DNA of 64,000 nucleotides from Hoplostethus atlanticus. Its lineage: Eukaryota > Chordata > Actinopteri > Trachichthyiformes > Trachichthyidae. Made by a program: the position numbers and the translations under genes. The notes below the pieces were generated by a model. The model had not been told where the DNA came from. It saw only the letters and a list, made by a program, of their open reading frames with translations, and did not search any database. This document shows positions 2,625 to 52,569 of this stretch, piece after piece. The stretch lies in assembly GCA_034670405.1 (NCBI GenBank), contig JAXDDX010000043.1, positions 2,821,501-2,885,500 of the forward strand, written 5' to 3'. Position 1 is the stretch's first letter. Each line of letters begins with the position of its first letter.

Positions 2625-33700
<31,076 letters not shown>

Positions 33701-36051: not shown

Positions 36052-36552
36052 TACACTATATACCTATATAGCTTGCTGGACATCCCATTCTAAAACCATG
36101 GGCATTAATATGGAGTTGGACCCCCCCCACTCTTTCCACAAGCTTTTGGAGTGTGTCTGTCATTCAGCCAAAAGAGCATTAGTGAGGTCAGGCAGTGATG
36201 TTGGATGAGAAGGCCTGGCTCGCAATTGGCATTCTGATTCCTCCCAAAGGTTCAATGGGGTTGAGGTCAGGGCTCTGTGCAGGCCAGTCGAGTTCCTCCA
36301 CACCAAACTGGTCTAACCATGTCTTTATGGACCTCGCTTTGTGCACAGGGGCTCAGTCATGCTGGAACAGCAAAGGGCCTTCCCCAAACTGTTGCCACAA
36401 TGTTGGAAGCGTCCAATTGGCTAAAATGTCTTGGTATCCTGTAGCATTAAGATTACCTTCACTGGAACTAAGGGGCCAAGCCCAAACCCTGAAGAACACC
36501 TGAACTCAATAACTAGTAGGGGTGTCCACTGACTTTCTGGCCATATAGTGTA
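36052..36552 (-). mobile_element. Tc1/mariner element, internally deleted, copy 2
   Basis: Same family as the copy at 12396, in the opposite orientation. The right inverted repeat is nearly intact; the left one has lost about 36 bases, leaving only TACACTATAT. The transposase remnant is broken. It shares the same N-terminal deletion as copy 1, so both come from an already deleted subfamily. It lies between psmd1 and the C2orf72-like gene. Confidence 0.9.
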
Positions 36553-38866: not shown

Positions 38867-39328
38867 GATGCCCGCGTATGCGCAATCACAGCTTTACGGA
38901 TCGTCTACAGAGAGATGGGTTCACTGACAAATCCATCCGCCGCCACCTCCCTGACCGCTCCTGACCCGTGGACGTGCAGAGAGACTTGCTCCTACTTGGT
39001 GGAAGGAAACACCAGCAGAGAGGGTGGGGATAAAAGCTCTGTGTTTATTTCTATTGGCCGCTGCGTTTTGGTAGGCGGGGCCATCTGCGACTAGAAGCGA
39101 ATACACTGCAGGCAACACAAGCCTTTTACAGGACAATTAAGTTACACTTTAATGCAATGGATAACATTACCTAAGTACAAGCTGATGATTTGATAATAAA
39201 AGTTCATAGACATGATAGCACCACCACCATAATGACATAATGCCACAATGTAGACTTATAAGCAGACAGAGTAGTGAACTGTTATCTCTTCTAAACAGGT
39301 CCTGGGCCAGGCTGTGGATAAGGAAGTC

Positions 39329-39406
39329 TCAGGGTGAGGTCACTCTCTTGATTCCCAATATCTGCATAGAAATGAGTCCATTCTCTCCGAGGTTGTAGAA
39401 GCCCAT
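39329..39406 (-). CDS. gene B exon 5 (C-terminus)
   Basis: Preceded by a long pyrimidine tract and acceptor (CTCTTTGTTTTTTCTCTGC then TTTGACAG-like TTTGACAAG). Phase 0. Encodes MGFYNLGENGLISMQILGIK plus five residues and a TGA. A possible AATAAA for this strand lies at about 39044-39049. Confidence 0.55.
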   Translation of the reverse strand: MGFYNLGENGLISMQILGIKRVTSP

Positions 39407-42127
39407 CTTGTCAAAGCAGAGAAAAAACAAAGAGAAGGCAATCATGAGCCCCAACTTCTGTAGCACAGGGCCTTCACTTGTGCACCTCAACACTTTTACT
39501 TGATTGTTAGTGCGTCCTTCAGTGCATGCCTTCTCAGTGAGTTCAAATGGCTTTCGCCCTAAAACCCAGAGTGAAGTGCCTTCATTGCAGTCTGCTCGGC
39601 TCCTGTGACTAATCCTTTAATCCACTCATGCCCGTTTCTTAATGTCAAGGCTCTGTCAATTTGACATTCCAGCGAGTTCATGAATTGAAATCTAAGTCAC
39701 ATAACCTCAACTAGCACTCTGCTATAGTCTGTGTGTGGGGTTGCCTTATTGTTTACTGATGAATGAATGATAAACCTGAGAGGCTGACCAAAACTAATAG
39801 ATAGGGTTCAGCCTTGGACCTTAGACTGGCTAATCATTGATTGATAGGTGTGTTGCCCCTCTGTCAAGAGCTATGTCACTGGCTCACAAGTGTCTTTTAT
39901 TTTGTAGTATCTCTCTTACTGCATCATAGCGTCAGTGCATTCAAACTGAAGTGGAATATTCCCGTTTGGATATCTAACATGTAACATCTCCCACATGCAC
40001 AGTAAATTGAGTTTTGCTGTTGTTGATTTTCATTTTTTTATATTTAGCCATGGTGATTCTACTTGTGCGGTAGATCAGAGCTCTGTAATCCAACCCTCCC
40101 CATCTCTTTCAGTCCCCTCACAGCAAATCCTCCAGTGTTAAGACATATTGGTTTTTTATTTACAATCATTTGGAGTGGACAACTTTGTGTGAACTTACGC
40201 CCTCGATAACATACTGACCTCTCCGTGCAGGTCAAGGAGGACCTGAGGGTCGAGGAACTCTGTTGGACCAGCGATTAAGACACGGAGACCTAAACGAACT
40301 GGGAAGAAAAGTGAACCAAATCGTATCATAATGTAAAAACAAGCCTGGATGGCCCTATCGTCCTTGAGTAAAAAGAAAAGCTGAAATCATCATTGTTGCA
40401 AACTTTTTACCAATACACCCTTCAGTCTTTTCTTCAGACCTGGGTCAAGCAGTAGCAGTTCATCTGCAGGGAGTGGTTTACAGAACCAGGACGGTTCAGA
40501 TGGTGTCAGGGAAGTTGGCACAAAACTATAAAAAGTGTTGAATTAACTCTGACTGATAGAAACACTGGCACAGTGTTGGGTTTTACTCTCTCACGGTTCA
40601 ATTAACACTTTTGCCACCGATCTGGCACCAGAGTAGGGTGAAACAAACAACAGAAAGTATTTGCAAATACTATTTGGCCCAGGTCAGCTTATCTTCAGTT
40701 CACTGATAACACGTCTTGATTTCATCATGCTACGTACAATGTGTCAAAGAGATGCGGCAATGTTGCACAACCTGTGATTTTCTTAGATGACAGCAGATCT
40801 CTTATAGAGGATATATGAGAGGCTGTCAATATCGTTGAAGGCAACATAGGACTGTTTCCCGGACTTCGGCTGTTATTCTGTGTCATGTTGGTGTCATGCA
40901 GGATCTGCAGTTGCATGGGTGAAACTGTGGACATCACACAACAGATGTTTTTATTATGACGTTTGGATTACAGCACCATTTAAAAAAAACAATATGTAAA
41001 AACCATGTTTATACTGTAAGAACATGGTGTCATCTAGGGCATTAACTTGGCATATTGCTGCTCTGACAGGCACAGAAAGCAGATGACATGATAACCTGTT
41101 GAGGAGGAATGCTGCTGGAGTGGTTGTCCCTCAGAGCTGGAAGCTGTTTCCGTCTCCCCCAGCGATGCAGCCGCCCTGGAATCTGAGACATTTCGCTTGG
41201 TGAATTAATCCTATTATTTGGATTCTCATTGTTAGTTGGGAAATGGAAACAAGATCTTTGAAACATGAGTGTGAGTTGAAATTTTAAACTTTCAATGACG
41301 TAGAAAAGCAACAAGTTGTTTAGTGTATTTTAGGTTAACCAGCTGAGTCATCCTGGCCAGCTTTATTACAGGAAAACTCTAAAACACATTCCAGGCTATT
41401 TACCTTTTTGTTGTATCCACTGTCCCTTAACCTGCCTCATCTACTTCTGCTTCAGTTACTGATTTCCTACATTTCCCAGAATGCTTTTCAACATACCCCA
41501 GAGAAGGGGCATGAACGTGTTGCTCTGTCAGCAGTGGGCATAATGGCATATAAATACAGCTGGTTAGCCACGTAGTTTGTGAACACTGGGGCGTGTCTAT
41601 GATCGTGGCCGTTGCATTCTGGTCTATTTAGGCTGCTGTCAGTGGAGAAATTGGCGTCTCTCCTCTTCTACGATGTGTGATTGTTGAACGTCGGTCTAGA
41701 AAGAAACCCTTGCTCTTTGATTCTGAGTGGCTGACATCAAAACCTGACATTTACCGTTGATGTTTTAGATCAATGAAACATTCTCTGATATCAAACTCCA
41801 TTGTAGCTGCTGGAAATAGAGAGAAATCCACCACCAAACAACTAAAAATCAATCAGTGTTTTTAGGTGGATTTTCCCTTTTCCCTTCCCTTCCCCTCACT
41901 TCGAGGCTTGATGATCATCATCACAACAACTATTATGTTACTATTATATATGGATGTCAAACAACATAAATCACATTCTTGGAAGAGATCATTTTACAAG
42001 ACAAGAACAATAACAGTATTGGGTTTTTACTTAAAACAAATTCCTTACCGACAAAGTAGGTTCCGAGAAGCAGTAAGTAAAGAAAGTGACCAAAACCACC
42101 AATGGCACAAGCTTTCCTCCTTGTCAT
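39329..42127 (-). CDS. gene B: novel 158-residue secreted protein, five exons
   Basis: Not recognised. Assembled from five minus-strand exons: 42049-42127, 41096-41182, 40772-40924, 40219-40298, 39329-39406. They total 477 nt with canonical GT-AG junctions and phases 1,1,1,0. Exon 1 is a signal peptide (MTRRKACAIGG, then FLYLLLLGTYFV). Exons 2-3 are Ser/Gln/Thr-rich (SLGETETASSSEGQPLQQHS) with possible N-glycosylation at NMT and NNS. Exons 4-5 encode a short hydrophobic/charged module (RLGLRVLIAGPTEFLDPQVL, then MGFYNLGENGLISMQILGIK) and a TGA. The mature part has no cysteine and no transmembrane helix. Exon count, phases and a weakly similar final module match gene A at 46151-52481, so the two look like tandem paralogues. 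An in-frame ATG upstream at 42187 would hide the signal peptide, so the inner ATG is preferred. Real splicing is inferred; transcript data would settle it. Confidence 0.6.
40219..41182 (-). CDS. gene B exons 2-4
   Basis: Exon 2 (41096-41182, 87 nt, acceptor GTCTCAG, donor CAACAG|GTTATC) and exon 3 (40772-40924, 153 nt, acceptor TGTCCACAG, donor CACAG|GTTGTG) are both phase 1-1 and could be skipped without shifting the frame. Exon 4 (40219-40298, 80 nt, acceptor TTTTCTTCCCAG, donor GAGAG|GTCAGT) runs from phase 1 to phase 0. The intron between exons 3 and 4 contains a dispersed repeat (about 40466-40640). Confidence 0.55.
40466..40640 (+). repeat. dispersed repeat, copy 2
   Basis: Shares CAGATGGTGTCAGGGAAGTT with 36682-36780, then continues into GTGTTGAATTAACTCTGAC and CAATTAACACTTTTGCC. 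In a gene B intron. Confidence 0.6.
42049..42127 (-). CDS. gene B exon 1 (signal peptide)
   Basis: Twenty-six codons plus one base: a basic start (MTRRK), a hydrophobic core (FLYLLLLGTYFV), then the donor GTCG|GTAAGG. This is the usual layout of a secreted-protein first exon with a phase-1 intron near the cleavage site. Confidence 0.6.
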
Positions 42128-43309
42128 GGTGAGCAGAGGACCAAATGCGGCTCGGGGGAGACTGTTCCAAATCTTTCTGGCATGCAATCTTATTACACAC
42201 CATTTTCACACAAAACACAATGGACCTGAAATAATAGGTGTTCGATTTCAACCACCATCCTTTGTCTCTGCTCTGTCTTTACAGGAGAGAACCTGAAAAA
42301 TGCTCTGACCTGGGGCAGAGGAAGGTCCAAAAAAGAAAACCTTATGAAACGTATTTACTTCAATATCAGAAAACAATCTGCACAGGAACACAAAGACAAC
42401 ATGAAGTTTTATTTTTTAGACTCATTTTTTAGTCTTTTCAAACAAATAGAAGAATAGAAACGTTATTTTGCTAAGGAAACGTAAGACGGATCAGATTCAG
42501 GTCATTGATTTGAAGGGTTTGTTAACATAGAGGTGAGGTAATATACTGTACATGGTTTGTGAAGAAGGAGGCAAAGCTTCTCCACTCCTAAGACCATTGT
42601 GGAAAAAAATATCAACTGTATACAATAAAACGTTTTTGCACCCTTTCAATTTTTCTAGGTTTTATTGCACTGATGCCTGAAATGACAACGCACTAAATCA
42701 GATATTTTTCACTTTGATTTTGATATAGTAACTAACAAAACACTGCTAAAAACAAAAGACTAATTAAAAATGGAAAACTAAAACATCTTGGTTGCAAGAG
42801 CCGACGTCTGGATGGGTCCTGAACAAGTTCTGTAGTGTGTGGGAATCACAGACGCCGATATCCAATGAAAGCTGAGAGCTCATAAGAATCTCCCTATATA
42901 CTTGAAATTTAAAACTTGTCCTACGATGAATGGAAGTTGAATAAGTTTTAGTTGAGGGATATAAAACGATTTCAAAGGCCCTTAATACAAAGACCACAAT
43001 CATGAAGTGGAGGAAATATGGCACCGCCAGAACAAAGATGGATGACGAGCAAGGAGGAAGCCATTCAGGGAAGCTACCCAGTGGCCAACAGCTACCTTAA
43101 ACTACAGGACTGTGTGGTGGAGTCTGGCCACATATCAACCATTTCACATATTGGCCACAGGTCTGGGCTGTGGGGTCGATTGACAAGATACTTCTCACTA
43201 AAAAGAACATCTAGTCCCATCTTAATTATCAATAGACACAGTCTCCCAGAACGAAAACGTCTTTGGTCCAATAAAACCATGGCAGAACTTCTTGGTCCTA
43301 ATATATATA

Positions 43310-43813
43310 CAGTACCAGTCTAAAGTTTGGACACACTTACTCATATTTTTTACTATTTTCCACATTTGAGAATAATAGTAAAGTCATCAAAACTATGAAA
43401 TAACACAAAAGGAATTATGCAGTGACCAAAAAAAATGTTAAACAAATCAAAACTATATTATATTTTAGATTCTTCAAAGTCGCCTCCCTTTGGCGTTAAC
43501 AAGCAAGAAATCCCACAAATTAACTTTTAAAGGCCACAGTCACTATGTGCCTTTAAAATGATGATTTAATCATTGTGGTTCAACATTCTCCACCTCTACA
43601 TTTCAAGTTCTAAATGAAAACTACTTGTTGGGGGTGGATTTTTTTTTAAATTTTGAAAATAGTTTTAGTTTTGAAAATAAATTCATACATAGGCATCAAC
43701 CTCACTATTTATATTTGTCTAAGAAACTAATTTCAAGCATTTAAGGATAAGCCTTTAAATCAAAATGTCTTTAAGATCATGAGAAACAGTCAGGTGTGTC
43801 TGAACTGGTACTG
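43310..43813. mobile_element. Tc1/mariner-type non-autonomous element
   Basis: Inverted ends CAGTACCAGTCTAAAGTTTG and, from the right end reversed, CAGTACCAGTTCAGACACAC, bounded by TATATATA. The inner sequence next to the left end (ATGAAATAACACAAAAGGAA and on) resembles a well-known fish Tc1 terminus. No transposase frame remains. Confidence 0.8.
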
Positions 43814-44551
43814 TATATATATAGCACTTTTCAAAGGTGCTATACAAACATAAGAGAGCAACAGAACCAACGTAAATGACAGAACACATCAATAAAAAAC
43901 AAAGTGTACAAATTAGTTTTAAGATGACGTTTATAACAGTGAACAGCGTTTGCAGACCAACATCAAGGGGAAGGCTGCTGTTTGGAGTTTCTCTTCAGTG
44001 GCAACAGGGTTTCTGGTCAGAAGGTAAAATGAATAACTCCACATACATATTTTGTCAACATGACACCAATCCAAAACAAACCAAGGATTGGTTGAAAAAA
44101 GGAACAACGGTATGGGATAGCCCAGTCAAGAGTCTACACAGGAGGCAATGAGAGAACAATGAGAGAAAATTCCTATGAGACTTATCCAAACAGATGTGCT
44201 GTTATCAAAGCAAAAGGGAGCCTCATTTCAGGCCTCAAGGATATAAAAACTAGAACATTTGAAAGGGTGTGTGGACTTTGATCTGCACTGCAGTTCAACA
44301 GAGAAGAACTATTTTCCAATGGCACATGGCTGAGAACCACTGACTTTAATGATATCAGTTTGAATACGTTTGGAATAAGTAGGAATAAGTTTGTCATTTA
44401 GGTTGCCCCTCTCCTTCCCCTTATTCCTGTGTTCATGCAGTCAGCGCAGATGGAGATCGTTTTCCTGGCTTCATAAGAAGCCATTTGCTGCCATTCATTT
44501 TTATACAGTAGGAAAAACAATTTTAACAGACTAGATAATATCAGTGCATGC

Positions 44552-45236
44552 ATTATGTTATGCTCTGCTTCCTGTCAGTCCCCTGACACCCACAGGAAGA
44601 AATACCAAAATGTACAAAATTAAAATGAAAATGTTCACGTTGTCAGCAGAGGGCGGCTTTAAGAGTAATGGCTGGGTTGGATTTCTATCTGGAAACAGAG
44701 GGTGCAGTAACACAATTCATCCAGTAGATGGCGCCAGGAGGCTTAAAGTGTGACGGTTCGGTAGTGACGTCATCAGCCTCTTCATACAGTTTTGCAGTCA
44801 ATGGTTGTTGGTAAATTTAATAATATAATATTTCAATGCATTTATAAAGTCTCTAAAATGTATAAATAAAAAAGTCTCAAGAATGTCAAAATGTATTGTA
44901 TTGTCGATGTAGAGGAATTGTTGAACACAATGTAAAATGTTTTGGTTTACAGTTTAAAAAAAATACAGTCTACATTATGAAATGAACCATTGGAATCTAC
45001 TATCTATTATCTGACTTCAGACAGCAGCGTGAGAACATAAAATACATGGAAAACACTATTCACCAGGTACTGCAGTACAACGAAAGTATTATAATATGAC
45101 CCAAACTTTCGTTGTACTGCAGTACCTGGTGAATAGTGTTTTCCATCACAACTTTACTGCAGACTTCCTGAAATCTGTCCAATCAGGACATCGTTTGAAC
45201 TGGAAAGCCTCCACTCAGCAGGTTTACCTTATTTAA
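44552..45236. repeat. 685-bp tandem duplication, copy 1
   Basis: Starts ATTATGTTATGCTCTGCTTC and is followed directly by a second copy at an offset of 685 bases. Contains a perfect inverted repeat (45046-45146). Confidence 0.95.
45046..45146. repeat. perfect 42-bp inverted repeat with 17-bp loop
   Basis: Arms 45046-45087 and 45105-45146 are exact reverse complements; the loop is ATTATAATATGACCCAA. A transcript of either strand would fold into a long hairpin. The arm contains the shorter palindrome GTACTGCAGTAC. Confidence 0.97.
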
Positions 45237-45929
45237 ATTATGTTATGCTCTGCTTCCTGTCAGTCCCCTGACACCCACAGGGAGAAATACCAAAATGTAC
45301 AAAATGAAAATGAAAATGTTCACGTTGTCTGTGAGGTCAGCAGAGGGCGGCTTTAAGAGTGATGGCTGGGTTGGATTTCTATCTGGAAACAGAGGGTGCA
45401 GTAACACAATTCATCCAGTAGATGGCGCCAGGAGGCTTAAAGTGTGACGGTTCGGTAGTGACGTCATCAGCCTCTTCATACAGTTTTGCAGTCAATGGTT
45501 GTTGGTAAATTTAATAATATTTCAATGCATTTATAAAGTCTCTAAAATGTATAAATAAAAAAGTCTCAAGAATGTCAAAATGTATTGTATTGTCGATGTA
45601 GAGGAATTGTTGAACACAATGTAAAATGTTTTGGTTTACAGTTTTAAAAAAATACAGTCTACATTATGAAATGAACCATTGGAATCTATTATCTATTATC
45701 TGACTTCAGACAGCAGCGTGAGAACATAAAATACATGGAAAACACTATTCACCAGGTACTGCAGTACAACGAAAGTATTATAATATGACCCAAACTTTCG
45801 TTGTACTGCAGTACCTGGTGAATAGTGTTTTCCATCACAACTTTACTGCAGACTTCCTGAAATCTGTCCAATCAGGACATCGTTTGAACTGGAAAGCCAC
45901 CACTCAGCAAGTTTACCTTATTTAAATTA
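45237..45929. repeat. 685-bp tandem duplication, copy 2
   Basis: Nearly identical to copy 1. Differences seen are an 11-base insertion near GTCTGTGAGGTCAGC, loss of a few bases in the ATAATATAAT tract and scattered substitutions. This is a recent event by its low divergence. Confidence 0.95.
45735..45835. repeat. second copy of the perfect inverted repeat
   Basis: Arms 45735-45776 and 45794-45835, same loop, inside duplication copy 2. Perfect pairing is kept. Confidence 0.95.
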
Positions 45930-46098
45930 GAGGAGCTGCTGTTGTAGGCCAATCAGGGTCCAGTATTGTGAGGACTTATTCTTCAAATTCATTCAGTAAA
46001 TACAATTTTTAAATAAATTACATTTCTTACATGAGGAACATTATTGTAATCACAGTACATTTGAAAACAAAACCATGAAATCTGAATGATTTGGGACC

Positions 46099-46104
46099 TT
46101 TAAT
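46099..46104 (-). terminator. candidate polyadenylation signal of gene A
   Basis: ATTAAA on the minus strand about 50 bases after the TGA. It is a common AATAAA variant, but it is only six bases long, so support is weak. Confidence 0.3.
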
Positions 46105-46150
46105 GGGGCAACTGGGTTACAGGGTGAATTGCTGACTGTCTCTTGATGCT

Positions 46151-47073
46151 TCATCGTATATCAGTGGGCTCATCCGTCTCCGGGGCGTGGTACCAGGGTG
46201 AAGTGGTGACCGGGCTGGGTGTGGAGGTTGGATGAGCACCATTCCCTTCTCCACACTGGGAACTGCTACATTGGACCACGCTTTTCACTGTCACTATCAC
46301 CGGTCCAAAGGCGTCAGGGGTTATCTGCCTGAGGGCCTGAAACAGAGGAGACCATAACGAGGATCATAACACATGCCATGACTGCTTTTATCGACGAACC
46401 CTGAAAGTCCCATGAGTGCATCTTGTTTTAGTATCGATGGTGTTAATACCATGCTTTTCCCTTTGAGCTACGCAGGAAGAGGGTTTATTGGGGAGATTGC
46501 TCTGTGTAATTGACTCTGAAATAACTCGTGGCTCCTAACAAATAGAACAACGGGCGGCTCAGGAGGTAGAGCGGGTTGGCCTCCAATCAGAAGATCATAG
46601 GTTCGATCCTCGGCTCCTCCAGTCCACATGTCGAAGTGTCCTTGAACCCCAAATTGCTCCCGATGGTCAGGCTAGCACCTTGCATGGTAGCTCACTGCCA
46701 TCGGCTGTGTGAATGAGAGGCATTTACTGTAAAGCGCTTTGGATAAAAGCGCTATATAAATGCAGTCCATGCAGACAAACAAGAAAAGGTCAAACCTTTT
46801 GAATGTAAAGGGCGATGGCATCTTCGCTCAGCTCGACATAGCTGGAAAGCTTCACTTCACATCGAGCAAAGACTGACTGGTCTGAGGAAGGACGATAATT
46901 GATAATCAAGATGAATTCATGTATGTGCTTGGACACATACATGCATGCATACTGGGAGTGTGTGTGTGTGTGTGTATAATATTGGCTTTATTAGAAATTC
47001 ACCATCAGACTATCAACATGCTCAAACAACATACCTGGAGCTGGAGCTGGAGCTGGAGATGATGCTTCAACCG
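46151..47073 (-). CDS. gene A exons 3-5 (PAPAP linker, C-terminal module)
   Basis: Exon 3 (47035-47073, 39 nt, acceptor TTTACAG, donor CCAG|GTATGT). Exon 4 (46796-46881, 86 nt, acceptor TTCCTCAG, donor AAAAG|GTTTGA). Exon 5 (46151-46336, 186 nt, acceptor CTGTTTCAG). Exon 4 starts VFARCEVKL. Exon 5 has ALRQITPDAFGPVIVTVKSV, two closely spaced cysteines (VQCSSSQC) and a PTSTPSPVTTSP stretch, ending TDEPTDIR. Three cysteines in the module suggest one or more disulphides. Confidence 0.65.
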
Positions 47074-50000
47074 CTGTAAAGTCAACATTTCTACATTAGT
47101 AATGCATATGACCAGCCAGCAAAACTGTTTTTTTGGCCTATTGGCTTCAGGATTACTAATCCAGCTAACTAATACAATGTAAATTGCTGAGCTGGCTGTT
47201 TCAAGCCGGCAGGGTCAGCCATCCCTATTGATGTTGAGACCAGGGTCCAACATGATCTCTATTCTCACCATTTGTCGGTTAGTACATCATTATTTTCATA
47301 TCTGAAGTGGACTTTTGTATGAATGTGGATTATGGCACAAGGATTGTTAAAGCACTCTTTGTGTATTGGTAAAAAATGTATGAATGGAAATAAACAACTA
47401 ACCAACACATAATGTCTTAGTTGAGGTTTTCTATGTATGATGATAAAAAATAAATGTCTTACTTGTCGCAACAACAACAGATGTCGTGGCCATTGTTGCA
47501 TTGACAGGTGGTGAGGTTGCGTTGATGGGTGATGAAGTTGCATTGATTGGTGGTGAAGTTGCATTGACAGGTGGTGAAGTTGCATTGAAGGGTGGTGAAG
47601 TTGCATTGACGGGTGCTGAAGTTGCATTGATGGGTGGTGAAGTTGCATTGATGGGTGGTGAAGTCGTATTGATGGGTAGTGAAGTTGCATTGACGGGTGC
47701 TGAAGTTGCATTGATGGGTGGTGAAGTTGCATTGATGGGTGGTGAAGTCGTATTGATGGGTAGTGAAGTTGCATTGAAAGGTGGTGAAGTCGCATTGACG
47801 GGTGGTGAAGTTGTATTGACGGGTGGTGAAGTTGCATTGAAGGGTGATGAAGTGGCATTGACGGGTGGTGAAGTCGTATTGATGGGTAGTAAGGTTGCAT
47901 TGATGGGTGGTGAAGTTGCATTGATTGGTGGTGAAGTTGCATTGACGGGTGGTGAAGTTGCATTGATGGGTGGTGAAGTTGCATTGATGGGTGGTGAAGT
48001 CGTATTGATGGGTAGTGAAGTTGCATTGAAAGGTGGTGAAGTCGCATTGACGGGTGGTGAAGTTGTATTGATGGGTAGTAAGGTTGCATTGACGGGTGGT
48101 GAAGTTGCATTGATGGGTGGTGAAGTTGTATTGACGGGTGGTGAAGTTGCATTGAAGGGTGGTGAAGTTGCATTGATGGGTGGTGAAGTCGTATTGATGG
48201 GTAGTGAAGTTGCATTGATGGGTGCTGAAGTTGCATTGATGGGTGGTGAAGTTGCATTGATGGGTGGTGAAGTCGTATTGATGGGTAGTGAAGTTGCATT
48301 GAAAGGTGGTGAAGTCGCATTGACGGGTGGTGAAGTTGTATTGATGGGTAGTAAGGTTGCATTGACGGGTGGTGAAGTTGCATTGATGGGTGGTGAAGTT
48401 GTATTGACGGGTGGTGAATTTGCATTGAAGGGTGATGAAGTGTCATTGACGGGTGGTGAAGTCGTATTGATGGGTAGTAAGGTTGCATTGATGGGTGGTG
48501 AAGTTGCATTGATTGGTGGTGAAGTTGCATTGAAGGGTGGTGAAGTTGCATTGACGGGTGGTGAAGTTGCATTGATGGGTGGTGAAGTTGCATTGATGGG
48601 TGGTGAAGTCGTATTGATGGGTAGTGAAGTTGCATTGAAAGGTGGTGAAGTCGCATTGACGGGTGGTGAAGTTGTATTGATGGGTAGTAAGGTTGCATTG
48701 ACGGGTGGTGAAGTTGCATTGATGGGTGGTGAAGTTGTATTGACGGGTGGTGAAGTTGCATTGAAGGGTGATGAAGTGGCATTGACGGGTGGTGAAGTCG
48801 TATTGATGGGTGGTGAAGTTGCATTGATGGGTGGTGAAGTTGCATTGACGGGTGGTGAAGTTGCATTGATGGGTGGCGAGGTTGCATTGACGGCTGGTGA
48901 AGTTACATTGAAGGGTAGCGAAGTTGCATTGACGGGTGGTGAAGTTGCATTGACGGGTGGTGAAGTCGCATTGATGGGTGGTGAGGTTGTATTGAGTGGT
49001 GGTGAAGTTGCATTGATGGGTGGTGAAGTTGCATTGAGGGGTGGTGAAGTTGCATTGATGGCTGGTGAAGTTGCGTTGACGGGTGGTGAGGTTGCATTGA
49101 TGGGTGGTGAAGTTGCATTCATGGGTGGTGAAGTTATATTGACGGGTGGTGAAGTTGCATTGAAGGGTGGTGAAGTCGCATTGATGGGTGGTGAAGTCGT
49201 ATTGATGGGTAGTAAGGTTGCATTGATGGGCGGTGAGGTTGTATTGAGTGGTGGTGAAGTTGCATTGATGGGTGGTGAATTTGCATTGAGTGGTGGTGAA
49301 GTTGCATTGAAGGGTAGTGAAGTTGTATTGACGAGTGGTGAAGTTGCATTGACGGCTGGTGAAGTCGCATTGATGGGTGGTGAAGTTGCATTCATGGGTG
49401 GTGAAGTTATATTGACGGGTGGTGAAGTTGCATTGAAGGGTGGTGAAGTCGCATTGACGGGTGGTGAAGTCGTATTGATGGGTAGTAAGGTTGCATTGAT
49501 GGGCGGTGAGGTTGCATTGATGGCTGGTGAGGTTGCATTGATGGCTGGTGAAGTTACATTGACGGGTAGTGAAGTTGCATTGACGGGTGTTGAGGTTGCG
49601 TTGATGGGTGGTGAAGTTGCATTGATTGGTGGTGAAGTTGCATTGACAGGTGGTGAAGTTGCGTTGGCGGGTGGTGAAGTTGCATTGACGGGTGGTGAAG
49701 TTGCATTGACAAGTGGTGAAGTTGAGTTAGCGGATGGTGAAGTTGCATTGAAGGGTGATGAAGTTGCATTTAAGGATGGTGAAGTTGCACTGACGGGGAT
49801 GGTTGAAGCTGAAATCCCCCTGACAGGCCCTTAAATGAAAATGAAAGGAAAATTTGCTGAAATATCAATCAATCAATCAAGTTTATTTGTATAGCACATT
49901 TCATACATGGAGGGAGACTTGTAGACTAGCAACAATATTTTTAATTCGATTCTCTGACACACTGGAAGCCAATGCAGGGATCTGAGAATTGGCGTTATGT

Positions 50001-52481
50001 GGTCAAACTTTTTCTTCTTTGTTAGTAGTCTAGCAGCAGCGTTCTGAATGAGCTGTAGCTGTCTGAGTGCCTTTTTAGGGAGACCTGAGAGAAGACCATT
50101 ACAGTAGTCTAGCCTACTGGTAATAAAGGCATGAATATGTTTTTCTAGGTCTTGATGTGACATGAAACCTCTGAGTCTTGCTATGTTTTTAAGGTGGTAG
50201 TAAGCTGATTTTGTCACTGACTTAATGTGGCTGTTGAAGTTGAGGTCTGAAGGAAATTTTGGCACATCCAGTCATTTACTTGCTTAATGCACTGGCACAG
50301 CAGGTCTATAGGACGATATTCATTTGGGGATAGAGCTATATAGATTTGGGTGTCGTCCGCGTAACAATGGTATGCAATATTGTTGTCTCGCATGGTTCGG
50401 CCTAACGGGAGCATGTAGAGGTTGAAAAGGCACGGTCCTACAATTGAACCTTGGGGGACCCCACAGGTCACATCAGTTAGCTCAGATACAAAGTTGCCAA
50501 GGGAAACAAAATAGTTCCTGTCTTGTAGATATGACTTGAACCAGTTTAGAACTGTGCCGGATAGTCCAACCCAGTTTTCCAATGTATCTAGCAGTATTAA
50601 TGGCACCAGGATTGAAATTTTCCCAGAGTCAGTGTTAAGGCGATTGTCATTAATAACTTTAATAAGAGCAGTTTCAGTGCTGTGAAGTTGTCATGGCAAC
50701 CAGATGAGACTAAAAAACTGTTAAGTTGTTGGAAGACAACTTTCTCAATCATTTTACCTATAAAAGGTAGATTTGATATTGGCCTGTAGTTGTTAATTAC
50801 AGAAGCATCTAGGCTCCCCTTTTTAGCAGAGGTTTAATGACTGCAGTTTTTAAGGCCTCTGGAAAGGTTCCTGATAAGAGAGAGCTGTTAACTATTTGCA
50901 ATATGTCTGTCGCCAGGCAGTCAAAAACATTTTTAAGAAAGCTTGTAGGCAGAGCATCAAAGCAGCAGGTGGATGGCTTAAGTTGACTCACCGTTTCCTT
51001 AAGAGATTTGTAATCAATACCATTAAACTGTGTCATTCTTAGTATATTCATGGGTGATCGCCACTTACGCTCAGCCTGAGTCTGAGGTAACCAGCATCCG
51101 TAAAGCCAGCACAGCTATTACATCTTTTCTGTCACACATTTTGTTTTGTTGTTCTTTTGTTTCTTACTACTTTCTGCCATTGTTGTTGTTGCTGTGACAG
51201 ATATCTCACCGCTGGCCACACCCACAGCAAATGGTACACACCCCAAAACATCCATAACATCCCTAAAAAGCCAATTTCAGGCAAATGGGGATTTAAGCAT
51301 GACCACACAGGGTCGCTGACAGACACAGACTGATACGTCTGATTCTTCAACTCCTGTGGCGGCTTTATGATTGCCGGTTACCTCAGCCTCAGTCTGTATG
51401 CTGTTGCAAAGTAGACAGCTCATGAGTGACAAGAGTGGCCAAACAGGTGGAGGAGGGCGGGGCTAATACACTTCTTGCCTCAATGTGAAAAGTTACATAT
51501 TATAGCTTAAAATAAGTTAGTGCCATTTTCACTTTGTATTTATGAGCAAAATGTCATTATGCCAATATGTCACTAGTGCAATCGGTTATCTCACGATGTC
51601 AAAACTTCAATATGCCATTATGTGCAAAACGTCAGTATGAGTGGTGTGTCTTCTGGGACAAAATGCTAACTGGACAAAGACAATCAAGACGTCGATTCAG
51701 ATCTGTGCATTATCCTATTTGTATGTATTGTAACTGGGGACAAGACATAGAATTTCTATTGTTCATTCCTTACTGTGCCATATGCATCCTATGTGTCATA
51801 TGTTGAAATGTCAATAGGCCGGGGACTGTGTGGGAGAGGGGCAAATTTAGCGTTTTAGCTCAGCTAAATTTAGCTTTTATTAGAATGTTATGATGTTTAT
51901 AGTGTCTCAGGTTTGCTGCTGCTACAACTGCATTTCCCTTAGATACATAAAGTGCCTATATATTTATCTGTGCATGTTTTCTAGGCATTTCTGAGCATGC
52001 ATGGTCCTCTTCAACACACACAGTTACACACATTCCCAGCCAATTTAAGGATTCACTTTTAGGGTATCACCACACTTGACAACAATATTAGTAACATACC
52101 ATGAGGCTGACGATAGGCTGGTTTGTAGAATTCAATGTCATTGTCCCACAAAAATTTTGATTAATCTAAATCTGTCCAAATTCTAATGGCACAGTAAAAA
52201 TTGGGTAGTAGCAAAGTAATGACAAAAGTTTCAAAACTTGCTCAAATTCTCAATACTTCAAAAAGACAGAATATGTTAAGAGAGATAAGGTGTTAATATC
52301 AATGACCTTCATGAAACTGTTATTTTTTCACATGGTGCCTAACTCATTTTATTTCATGTATGAAATTCTTCATACATGAAAGTAGAGAATAAAGACAAAC
52401 ATATGAAAGCCGATAACACAACCTACCTCTTGTTGTTAGCCCCAGTAGGACGAACAATGCGATAACCTGGACTGAATGCAT
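46151..52481 (-). CDS. gene A: giant NATSPP-repeat mucin-like secreted protein, five exons
   Basis: Not recognised. Five minus-strand exons: 52427-52481, 47463-49829, 47035-47073, 46796-46881, 46151-46336. Together they make 2,733 nt and 910 residues, with GT-AG junctions and phases 1,1,1,0. Exon 1 is a signal peptide (MHSVQVIALFVLLGLTTR). Exon 2 is about 109 tandem seven-residue units of type N-A-T-S-P-P-[V/I/F], nearly all with an N-X-T sequon and rich in Ser/Thr/Pro, so a heavily N- and probably O-glycosylated rod is expected. Exon 3 is VEASSPAPAPAP. Exons 4-5 encode a module running RCEVKLSSYVELSEDAIALY to FGPVIVTVKSVVQC, then a Thr/Ser/Pro tail and TGA. No transmembrane helix or GPI-like hydrophobic end is visible, so secretion is inferred. 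A TATATA sits about 85 bases upstream of the start and an ATTAAA about 50 bases after the stop. A role in mucus, egg coat or another surface layer is speculation. Confidence 0.68.
46550..46775 (+). mobile_element. tRNA-derived SINE, near full length
   Basis: A box in GGCTCAGGAGGTAGAGC, B box GGTTCGATCC, a body containing AAGTGTCCTTGAACCCC, and a tail TAAAGCGCTTTGGATAAAAG ending ATAAATGCAGTCCAT. It is the best-preserved SINE here, in the intron between exons 4 and 5 of gene A. Confidence 0.88.
47463..49829 (-). CDS. gene A exon 2 (repeat exon, 2,367 nt)
   Basis: Entered through TTTTCATTTAAG|GG and left through GCGACAA|GTAAGAC. The length, 2,367 nt, is an exact multiple of three. After a short unique start (PVRGISASTIPVSATSPS) the exon is repeat to VNATMATTSVVVAT at its end. 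No stop occurs in this frame. A second acceptor (GGGGATTTCAG) in the same phase would remove only a few residues, but its pyrimidine tract is poor. Confidence 0.7.
47496..49796. repeat. 21-bp coding minisatellite, about 109 units
   Basis: Imperfect head-to-tail units whose plus-strand consensus is GTTGCATTGACGGGTGGTGAA, varying mainly at the ACG/ATG/AAG triplet and at GGT/AGT. The period is exactly 21 throughout, so all frames keep their phase and several stay open. Variant blocks recur at spacings of 252, 273 and 336 bases (12, 13 and 16 units), showing higher-order duplication. The array forms nearly all of gene A exon 2. Confidence 0.97.
49862..51055 (-). mobile_element. LINE (L2/CR1-like) fragment with 3' tail
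   Basis: Broken reverse-transcriptase pieces lie on the minus strand: LNWFKSYLQDR, TCGVPQGSIVGPCLFNLY and YADDTQIYI at 50214-50606, a further upstream piece at 50809-51051, and the RT C-terminal region (SRLDYCNGLLSGLPKKALRQ) at 49873-50265. The low-coordinate end is the 3' end, with a (TTGA)n tail, as in fish L2-type LINEs. It is 5'-truncated, frameshifted and inactive, and sits in intron 1 of gene A. Confidence 0.9.
51062..51396. mobile_element. possible small inverted-repeat element
   Basis: CTGAGTCTGAGGTAACCAGC, then ATCCGTAAAGCCAGCAC (left), pairs imperfectly with the reverse complement of the right end, CTGAGGCTGAGGTAACCGGC, then AATCATAAAGCCGCCAC. The arms are about 38 bases and roughly 80 percent alike. 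Suggests a MITE in gene A intron 1, next to the LINE. No target duplication confirmed. Confidence 0.5.
52427..52481 (-). CDS. gene A exon 1 (signal peptide)
   Basis: Eighteen codons plus one base encode MHSVQVIALFVLLGLTTR, a clear hydrophobic signal sequence, followed by donor AGAG|GTAGGT. Phase 1 agrees with the acceptor at 49829. Confidence 0.68.
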
Positions 52482-52561: not shown

Positions 52562-52569
52562 AGTATATA
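52562..52569 (-). promoter_or_regulatory. candidate TATA box of gene A
   Basis: A TATATA-type box read on the minus strand, about 85 bases before the signal-peptide ATG. It would place transcription start about 55 bases before the ATG. Inferred from position and sequence only. Confidence 0.4.

Follow-up and report, generated by a model that had tools for sequence, protein, structure and literature searches.

We analysed a window of 64,000 nucleotides of the Hoplostethus atlanticus genome (GCA_034670405.1, contig JAXDDX010000043.1, positions 2,821,501 to 2,885,500) and found on its minus strand, at 52481-46151, a gene, here called gene A, that probably encodes a secreted mucin-like glycoprotein without the SEA domain of its relative in Centroberyx and is predicted to carry an extended brush of N-linked sugars. 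A 21-bp unit is repeated ~110 times within its second exon. Gene A is confirmed, on the sequence evidence, as a real, unnamed gene of a secreted type, with a signal-peptide exon followed by a Ser/Thr/Pro-rich repeat exon, and we accept it as real because a homologue was found. A preliminary description of the window had already proposed this gene and paired it with a second, gene B, as its duplicate; the results below correct that pairing.

The five exons proposed for gene A can be joined into 910 codons with intron phases 1,1,1,0, and measure 55, 2367, 39, 86, and 186 nt. Exon 1 (52427-52481) encodes the signal peptide MHSVQVIALFVLLGLTTR and ends in phase 1; exon 2 (47463-49829) encodes a GPVRGISAS leader and then 108 heptads of the form N-x-T-S-P-P-x; exon 3 as proposed (47035-47073) is a phase 1-1 exon; exon 4 (46796-46881) encodes the first half of a small C-terminal module and ends in phase 0; and exon 5 (46151-46336; tblastn E value 9.6e-7) encodes its second half, a Cys-containing tail, and the stop codon. 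Six of the eight splice sites are in about the top 2% of the AG or GT sites of the window, the exon 1 donor scoring in the top 0.5% of GT sites. The long open frame proves nothing by itself, because the 21-bp array is also open on the opposite strand, for 795 codons. A TATA-box-like TATATA found by pattern scan (52564-52569, minus strand) lies 88 nt upstream of the start codon, and a candidate poly(A) signal, ATTAAA (46099-46104, minus strand), lies 47 nt past the stop, both as consensus matches only. The predicted product has a peptide mass of about 89 kDa, sugar being extra, and three cysteines in its C-terminal part; read by eye, the exon 5 sequence shows no hydrophobic stretch and no transmembrane or glycosylphosphatidylinositol (GPI) anchor.

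Counted from the first NATSSPF, the 108 in-register heptads comprise 45 distinct units as DNA and 28 as peptide, near-identical rather than identical. The sequon N-x-S/T is kept in 106 of them, giving one potential N-glycosylation site per unit, and a further sequon sits in a partial unit after them, for a total of 107 sequons in 910 residues, or 11.8 per 100 residues; the longest stretch at exact seven-residue spacing comprises 44 of them. The base changes in the array avoid destroying this sequon. At its two non-degenerate positions, the Asn codon is unchanged in all 108 units and the Thr codon is changed in two, against 5 and 15 third-base changes, respectively (20 together). Only 2 of 193 observed base differences destroy the sequon, compared with ~39 expected when differences are placed at random on like bases (minimum 21 in 5000 trials). 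Permutation of columns gave P values of 0.001 for all units, 0.002 for distinct units, and 0.006 for distinct events, which are rough values given that the array is homogenised, or evolving in concert, and its copies are not independent. We see the constraint at the sequon only: taken over the full unit, the coding frame shows no elevated synonymous fraction (0.321 vs 0.308, P 0.44); a synonymous excess over the whole unit was dropped as a candidate on these figures.

A homologue search with full-length gene A gave 18 proteins at E ≤1 among 7991 scored, of which 14 were named to fish, one had an incomplete organism name, and the remaining three were a cubilin-like protein of abalone and two proteins without a name. 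One of these matches, P0002, is a 530-residue protein of Centroberyx affinis (order Beryciformes) that was deposited as uncharacterized. Its N-terminus reads MYSVQFILLFGLLLGQTARGPLRGISA against MHSVQVIALFVLLGLTTRGPVRGISA in gene A, and its C-terminal module and tail are 51% identical to those of gene A over 79 residues (E 3e-21 in a single comparison). When the exons of gene A were compared with P0002 one at a time, the scores of exon 1, the start of exon 2, exon 4, and exon 5 were each reached by 0 of 2000 shuffles; exon 3 found no match, with 729 of 2000 shuffles scoring at least as high. The two proteins are alike in signal peptide, GP[VL]RGISA leader, Thr-Ser-Pro heptads, module and tail, and in having no C-terminal hydrophobic segment by eye, so that gene A matches the P0002 family both at its signal peptide and leader and at its C-terminal module. 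They differ in that P0002 has a SEA domain between its repeats and its module and mostly Ser-starting heptads. The five-exon, 910-residue model with phases 1,1,1,0 given in the preliminary description was reproduced, with exons 1, 2 (at its start), 4, and 5 backed by P0002, and its claim of a signal-peptide exon ahead of a Ser/Thr/Pro-rich repeat exon holds, exon 1 matching the N-terminus of P0002.

The other matches place gene A in a wider family. Eleven of the 18 carry a precomputed SEA domain, and five of those 11 end in hydrophobic sequence by eye; in a profile search, the gene A C-terminal module was present among the 18 in P0002 only. Seven fish multi-SEA mucin-like proteins (P0001, P0003-P0006, P0008, and P0016), listed without a functional name, resemble gene A in that five of them (P0001, P0003, P0004, P0005, and P0016) have runs of at least seven sequons at seven-residue spacing; unlike gene A, each has between two and six SEA domains or segments, five of them (by eye) end in hydrophobic sequence, and none has the gene A module. 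Four fish receptors with GPS and 7tm_2 domains (P0007, P0010, P0011, and P0014, the first two named ADGRG2) also have stalks of N-x-T heptads like those of gene A, but they are seven-transmembrane proteins without the gene A module. N-x-T heptads predominate in P0001, P0003, P0004, and P0005, and Ser leads heptad position 1 in P0002 (18 of 31 pattern matches, with Asn in 6) and P0006 (9 of 20). Because both residues predominate among relatives, either of them may be the ancestral one at this position. By its make-up of a signal exon, a giant repeat exon 2, and a small C-terminal module, the predicted protein belongs with the fish SEA-type mucin-like glycoproteins. The preliminary description knew of no named family with this layout; the family of gene A is nonetheless partly known. 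Gene A is named nowhere in the titles and abstract openings of the literature searched, and Pfam and PDB searches with the modules of both gene A and gene B gave nothing credible. Early homologue searches with a shortened gene A and with gene B also gave nothing; these are weak negatives, as the database does contain fish proteins and the shortened query missed P0002, whose length fell within range.

The SEA domain is present in the Centroberyx relative and was not matched in our window. Pfam places it in P0002 between the repeats and the module with an E value of 1e-10. In a structure model of P0002, computed jointly with nine relatives, the predicted local distance difference test (pLDDT) score averages 84-95 per block over residues 321-420, a segment that finds MUC16 SEA domains as its best PDB matches (E about 1e-6); outside the SEA region the model is mostly below 50 and uninformative. 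A SEA profile made from 30 segments taken from 9 relatives and run on the six-frame window gave nothing above chance (best E 0.58). Because no match in the window rose above chance, we take gene A to be without the SEA domain that marks both the P0002 family and the SEA-type membrane mucins. The expected site of the domain, intron 2 of gene A, is only 389 bp long. As a rule for extracellular modules, a phase 1-1 exon between phase-1 introns can drop out in frame, and gene A has probably lost its SEA domain in frame between phase-1 introns. The gene A module was itself suspected of being half a SEA domain from its strand-helix-strand look, an idea that was rejected when HHalign gave probabilities of 0.78% for the N half of SEA, 0.12% for the C half, and 0.54% for the whole.

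The missing SEA domain could also be accounted for if gene A were a decayed or partly unmodelled membrane- or GPI-anchored multi-SEA mucin, in which case exon 5 would not be the true end or the gene would be a pseudogene. Heptads like those of gene A do occur in multi-SEA fish proteins with C-termini that are hydrophobic by eye (P0001, P0003, P0005, P0006, and P0016), and intron 1 of gene A contains a remnant of a long interspersed nuclear element (LINE) reverse transcriptase, on the strand of gene A and outside the protein (49873-51114). Within this remnant, the open reading frame at 50214-50690, one of three, matches RVT_1 at E 2e-12; the two that flank it have no Pfam match and were assigned to the remnant by eye. 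We nonetheless consider this explanation improbable, since P0002 has exon 5 in common with gene A and ends as gene A does, with no hydrophobic tail by eye, while the gene A frame is free of stops, most of its splice sites are strong, its sequon is conserved, and an ATTAAA follows its stop codon.

Our main reading is that gene A is the likely source of a secreted brush of predicted N-glycans. The signal peptide would carry the product into the secretory pathway, where oligosaccharyltransferase would glycosylate much of the array, placing one sugar at every seventh residue over a length of about 750. Being rich in Pro, the array probably does not adopt a compact fold, and its glycosylated backbone would be expected to stay extended, stiff, and hydrated. 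Because the product is without SEA and, by eye, has no anchor in the membrane, it would be set free in soluble form, and it could form a coat with a steric, lubricating, or hydrating role. The parts that would anchor it or join it to other components of the matrix are, in all likelihood, the small C-terminal module and the three C-terminal cysteines. If the array is glycosylated as predicted, it would be a very dense and regular platform for N-glycosylation, above the 13 of the 18 database matches in which we measured sequon density (1.4-8.1 per 100 residues); it would then allow the occupancy of closely spaced sequons to be studied in a natural protein, and would belong to a family whose heptads differ by species in the residue at the sequon position, which is Asn here and mostly Ser in Centroberyx.

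Several findings weigh against this reading. P0002 has 9 sequons where gene A has 107, Ser usually replacing Asn in its heptads, and since the relative has so few, a brush of N-glycans is not constant across the family. The loss of SEA rests on one relative, and a gain of the domain in Centroberyx or an error in the prediction of P0002 would also fit. The module is not detectably SEA-like by HHalign and has no confident fold, as residues 428-530 of P0002, which include it, have pLDDT values below 50. In the array, the homogenised copies and the unraised synonymous fraction noted above limit what the sequon constraint can carry. In the exon chain, the acceptor of exon 3 and the donor of exon 4 are weak, reaching only the top 22% and the top 15% of window AG and GT sites. 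Because of this weak acceptor, and because exon 3 can be skipped in frame (the frame stays open, at 897 residues), exon 3 stays a candidate.

A broader proposal, which we put forward tentatively and hold as less likely than not, is that gene A represents an "N-mucin", a soluble mucin relative that has dropped its SEA domain and in which the array has been selected for a sequon at every seventh residue and the brush would be N-linked rather than O-linked, and that N-glycan heptad stalks are used widely among fish, in the multi-SEA and ADGRG2-like proteins. Mammalian mucin arrays serve O-glycans. The SEA-type membrane mucins MUC3/12/17 resemble gene A in their giant exon 2 of Pro/Thr/Ser repeats, as described in an excerpt of PMC9578598; gene A too has a giant Pro/Thr/Ser tandem-repeat exon 2 following its signal exon, and the SEA domain of MUC16 is the nearest structure to that of P0002. 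They are unlike gene A in that it has no SEA domain and, by eye, no transmembrane segment or cytoplasmic tail.

The nearest family to gene A by descent would be the SEA-type mucins, and its nearest functional parallel, by analogy, the fish-egg hyosophorins. The medaka hyosophorin unit is reportedly a nonapeptide with one large N-glycan. Excerpts of PMC3528131 and PMC6983019 define hyosophorins and their repeat units: they are built of a short tandem peptide with an N-glycan on the unit in medaka and flounder, a like peptide occurring in cod, and their hallmarks are a carbohydrate content of 80-90%, a location in cortical alveoli, and cleavage at activation. The cod egg sialoglycopeptide starts Ala-Ser-Asn(glycan)-Gly-Thr-Gln-Ala-Pro (excerpt of PMC6983019) and is thus of other sequence than the gene A unit, and hyosophorin is a proposed substrate of an ovary-enriched acid peptide:N-glycanase (PNGase) in an excerpt of PMC12753239. 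Gene A could itself be a hyosophorin-type glycopolyprotein of cortical alveoli, made in the oocyte, set free when the egg is activated, and then cleaved into single glycopeptides. With one sequon per heptad in nearly every unit, it is like the medaka nonapeptide and the cod sialoglycopeptide. However, the likeness is one between repeat units as described, the gene A heptad is rich in Pro and Ile/Val, and the relatives of gene A are SEA-domain mucin-like proteins, and we regard this alternative as unlikely. An antifreeze glycoprotein was also considered for gene A and dropped, the repeats of such proteins being Ala-Ala-Thr.

The preliminary description had read gene A and gene B (39329-42127, minus strand) as diverged tandem duplicates sharing a small extracellular module, a view that we now find very improbable. 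The two do lie on the same strand, 4 kb apart, gene B has an exon 1 resembling a signal peptide, and the hydrophobic patterns of the two modules are similar by eye. The sequence comparisons do not bear the view out. Module A against module B scored 16, under the shuffle mean of 19.3 (P 0.90), with P values of 0.45 to 0.90 for parts of the modules (0.45 for the exon 5 parts, which score at the mean), and HHalign, the comparison of hidden Markov models that the preliminary description had called for, gave a probability of 0.19%; the faint likeness claimed for the modules is thus not beyond chance. A profile of the gene A and P0002 module run over the window found only the two exons of gene A at E <1, and exons 1, 4, and 5 of gene B scored no better against P0002 than shuffles did (558, 769, and 175 of 2000 reach the score). 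No homologue of gene B was found, in a type of search that is insensitive. At the DNA level, the two loci share only matches of 11-25 bp (best E 0.05). Since phase-1 introns are common in extracellular genes, a phase pattern common to A and B would prove little. The shuffles, the comparisons of profiles and of DNA, and the ranking of splice chains described next accordingly led us to reject tandem duplication of A and B: no similarity of DNA or protein stands out between the loci, and gene B as a duplicate of gene A is not supported.

The structure proposed for gene B is likewise unsupported. Its five exons can be joined, giving 158 codons with phases 1,1,1,0, and the splice sites are good at exons 1 and 4 and fair at exon 5, but the sites of exon 2 (top 35% and 20% of window AG/GT sites) and exon 3 (top 12% and 41%) are at background level. 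Of 81 phase patterns tried at this locus, 27 were feasible, and 1,1,1,0 ranked 9th among them. The best chain of that pattern scores 17.3, compared with 5.2 for the proposed one, and differs from it in exons 2, 3, and 5 and in the exon 4 acceptor; the better chains use other exons and phases. A 1,1,1,0 chain of any kind was given by 10 of 60 shuffled sequences, 5 of which reached 5.2, and by 25 of 72 real 3-kb control stretches, 7 of which reached 5.2. Counting the other way, and in favour of something at the locus, the score of 17.3 was reached by 0 of 60 shuffles (maximum 12.4) and by 1 of 72 controls, and the best chain of any pattern (23.3) by 3 of 72 controls. Because better chains are found there than in most controls, some other gene may lie in the gene B region (39250-42250).

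Two further observations concern this part of the window. Just upstream of the proposed exon 5 of gene B, and in the same frame, the segment at 39404-39490 reads LQKLGLMIAFSLFFLCF, a possible membrane segment; its alignment to the hydrophobic tail of P0016 is weak and at chance level (E 5.2). Between genes B and A, at 44552-45929, a stretch of ~690 bp is repeated head to tail with 97% identity, and each copy holds a palindrome-like segment, so that the whole looks like a duplicated hairpin element.

The setting of the locus next to psmd1 and C2orf72, as given in the preliminary description, was borne out by minus-strand pieces of psmd1 (PC_rep and RPN2_N) and by an exon resembling C2orf72, whose DUF4630 match is weak and falls short of the curated Pfam cut-off. 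The psmd1 exons were tested against Pfam only at 26-32 kb and were read by eye at 4.7-5.0 kb. Rfam gave nothing at the gathering threshold. An exon of a 7tm_1 receptor, which we take to be htr2b-like, lies on the plus strand at 21435-22184, flanked on both sides by sequence that reads as psmd1 exons of the minus strand. Finally, a 423-bp stretch is present in inverted copies at 12396-12817 and 36132-36552 that are 97.6% identical, the first of which overlaps a match to a DDE_3 transposase.

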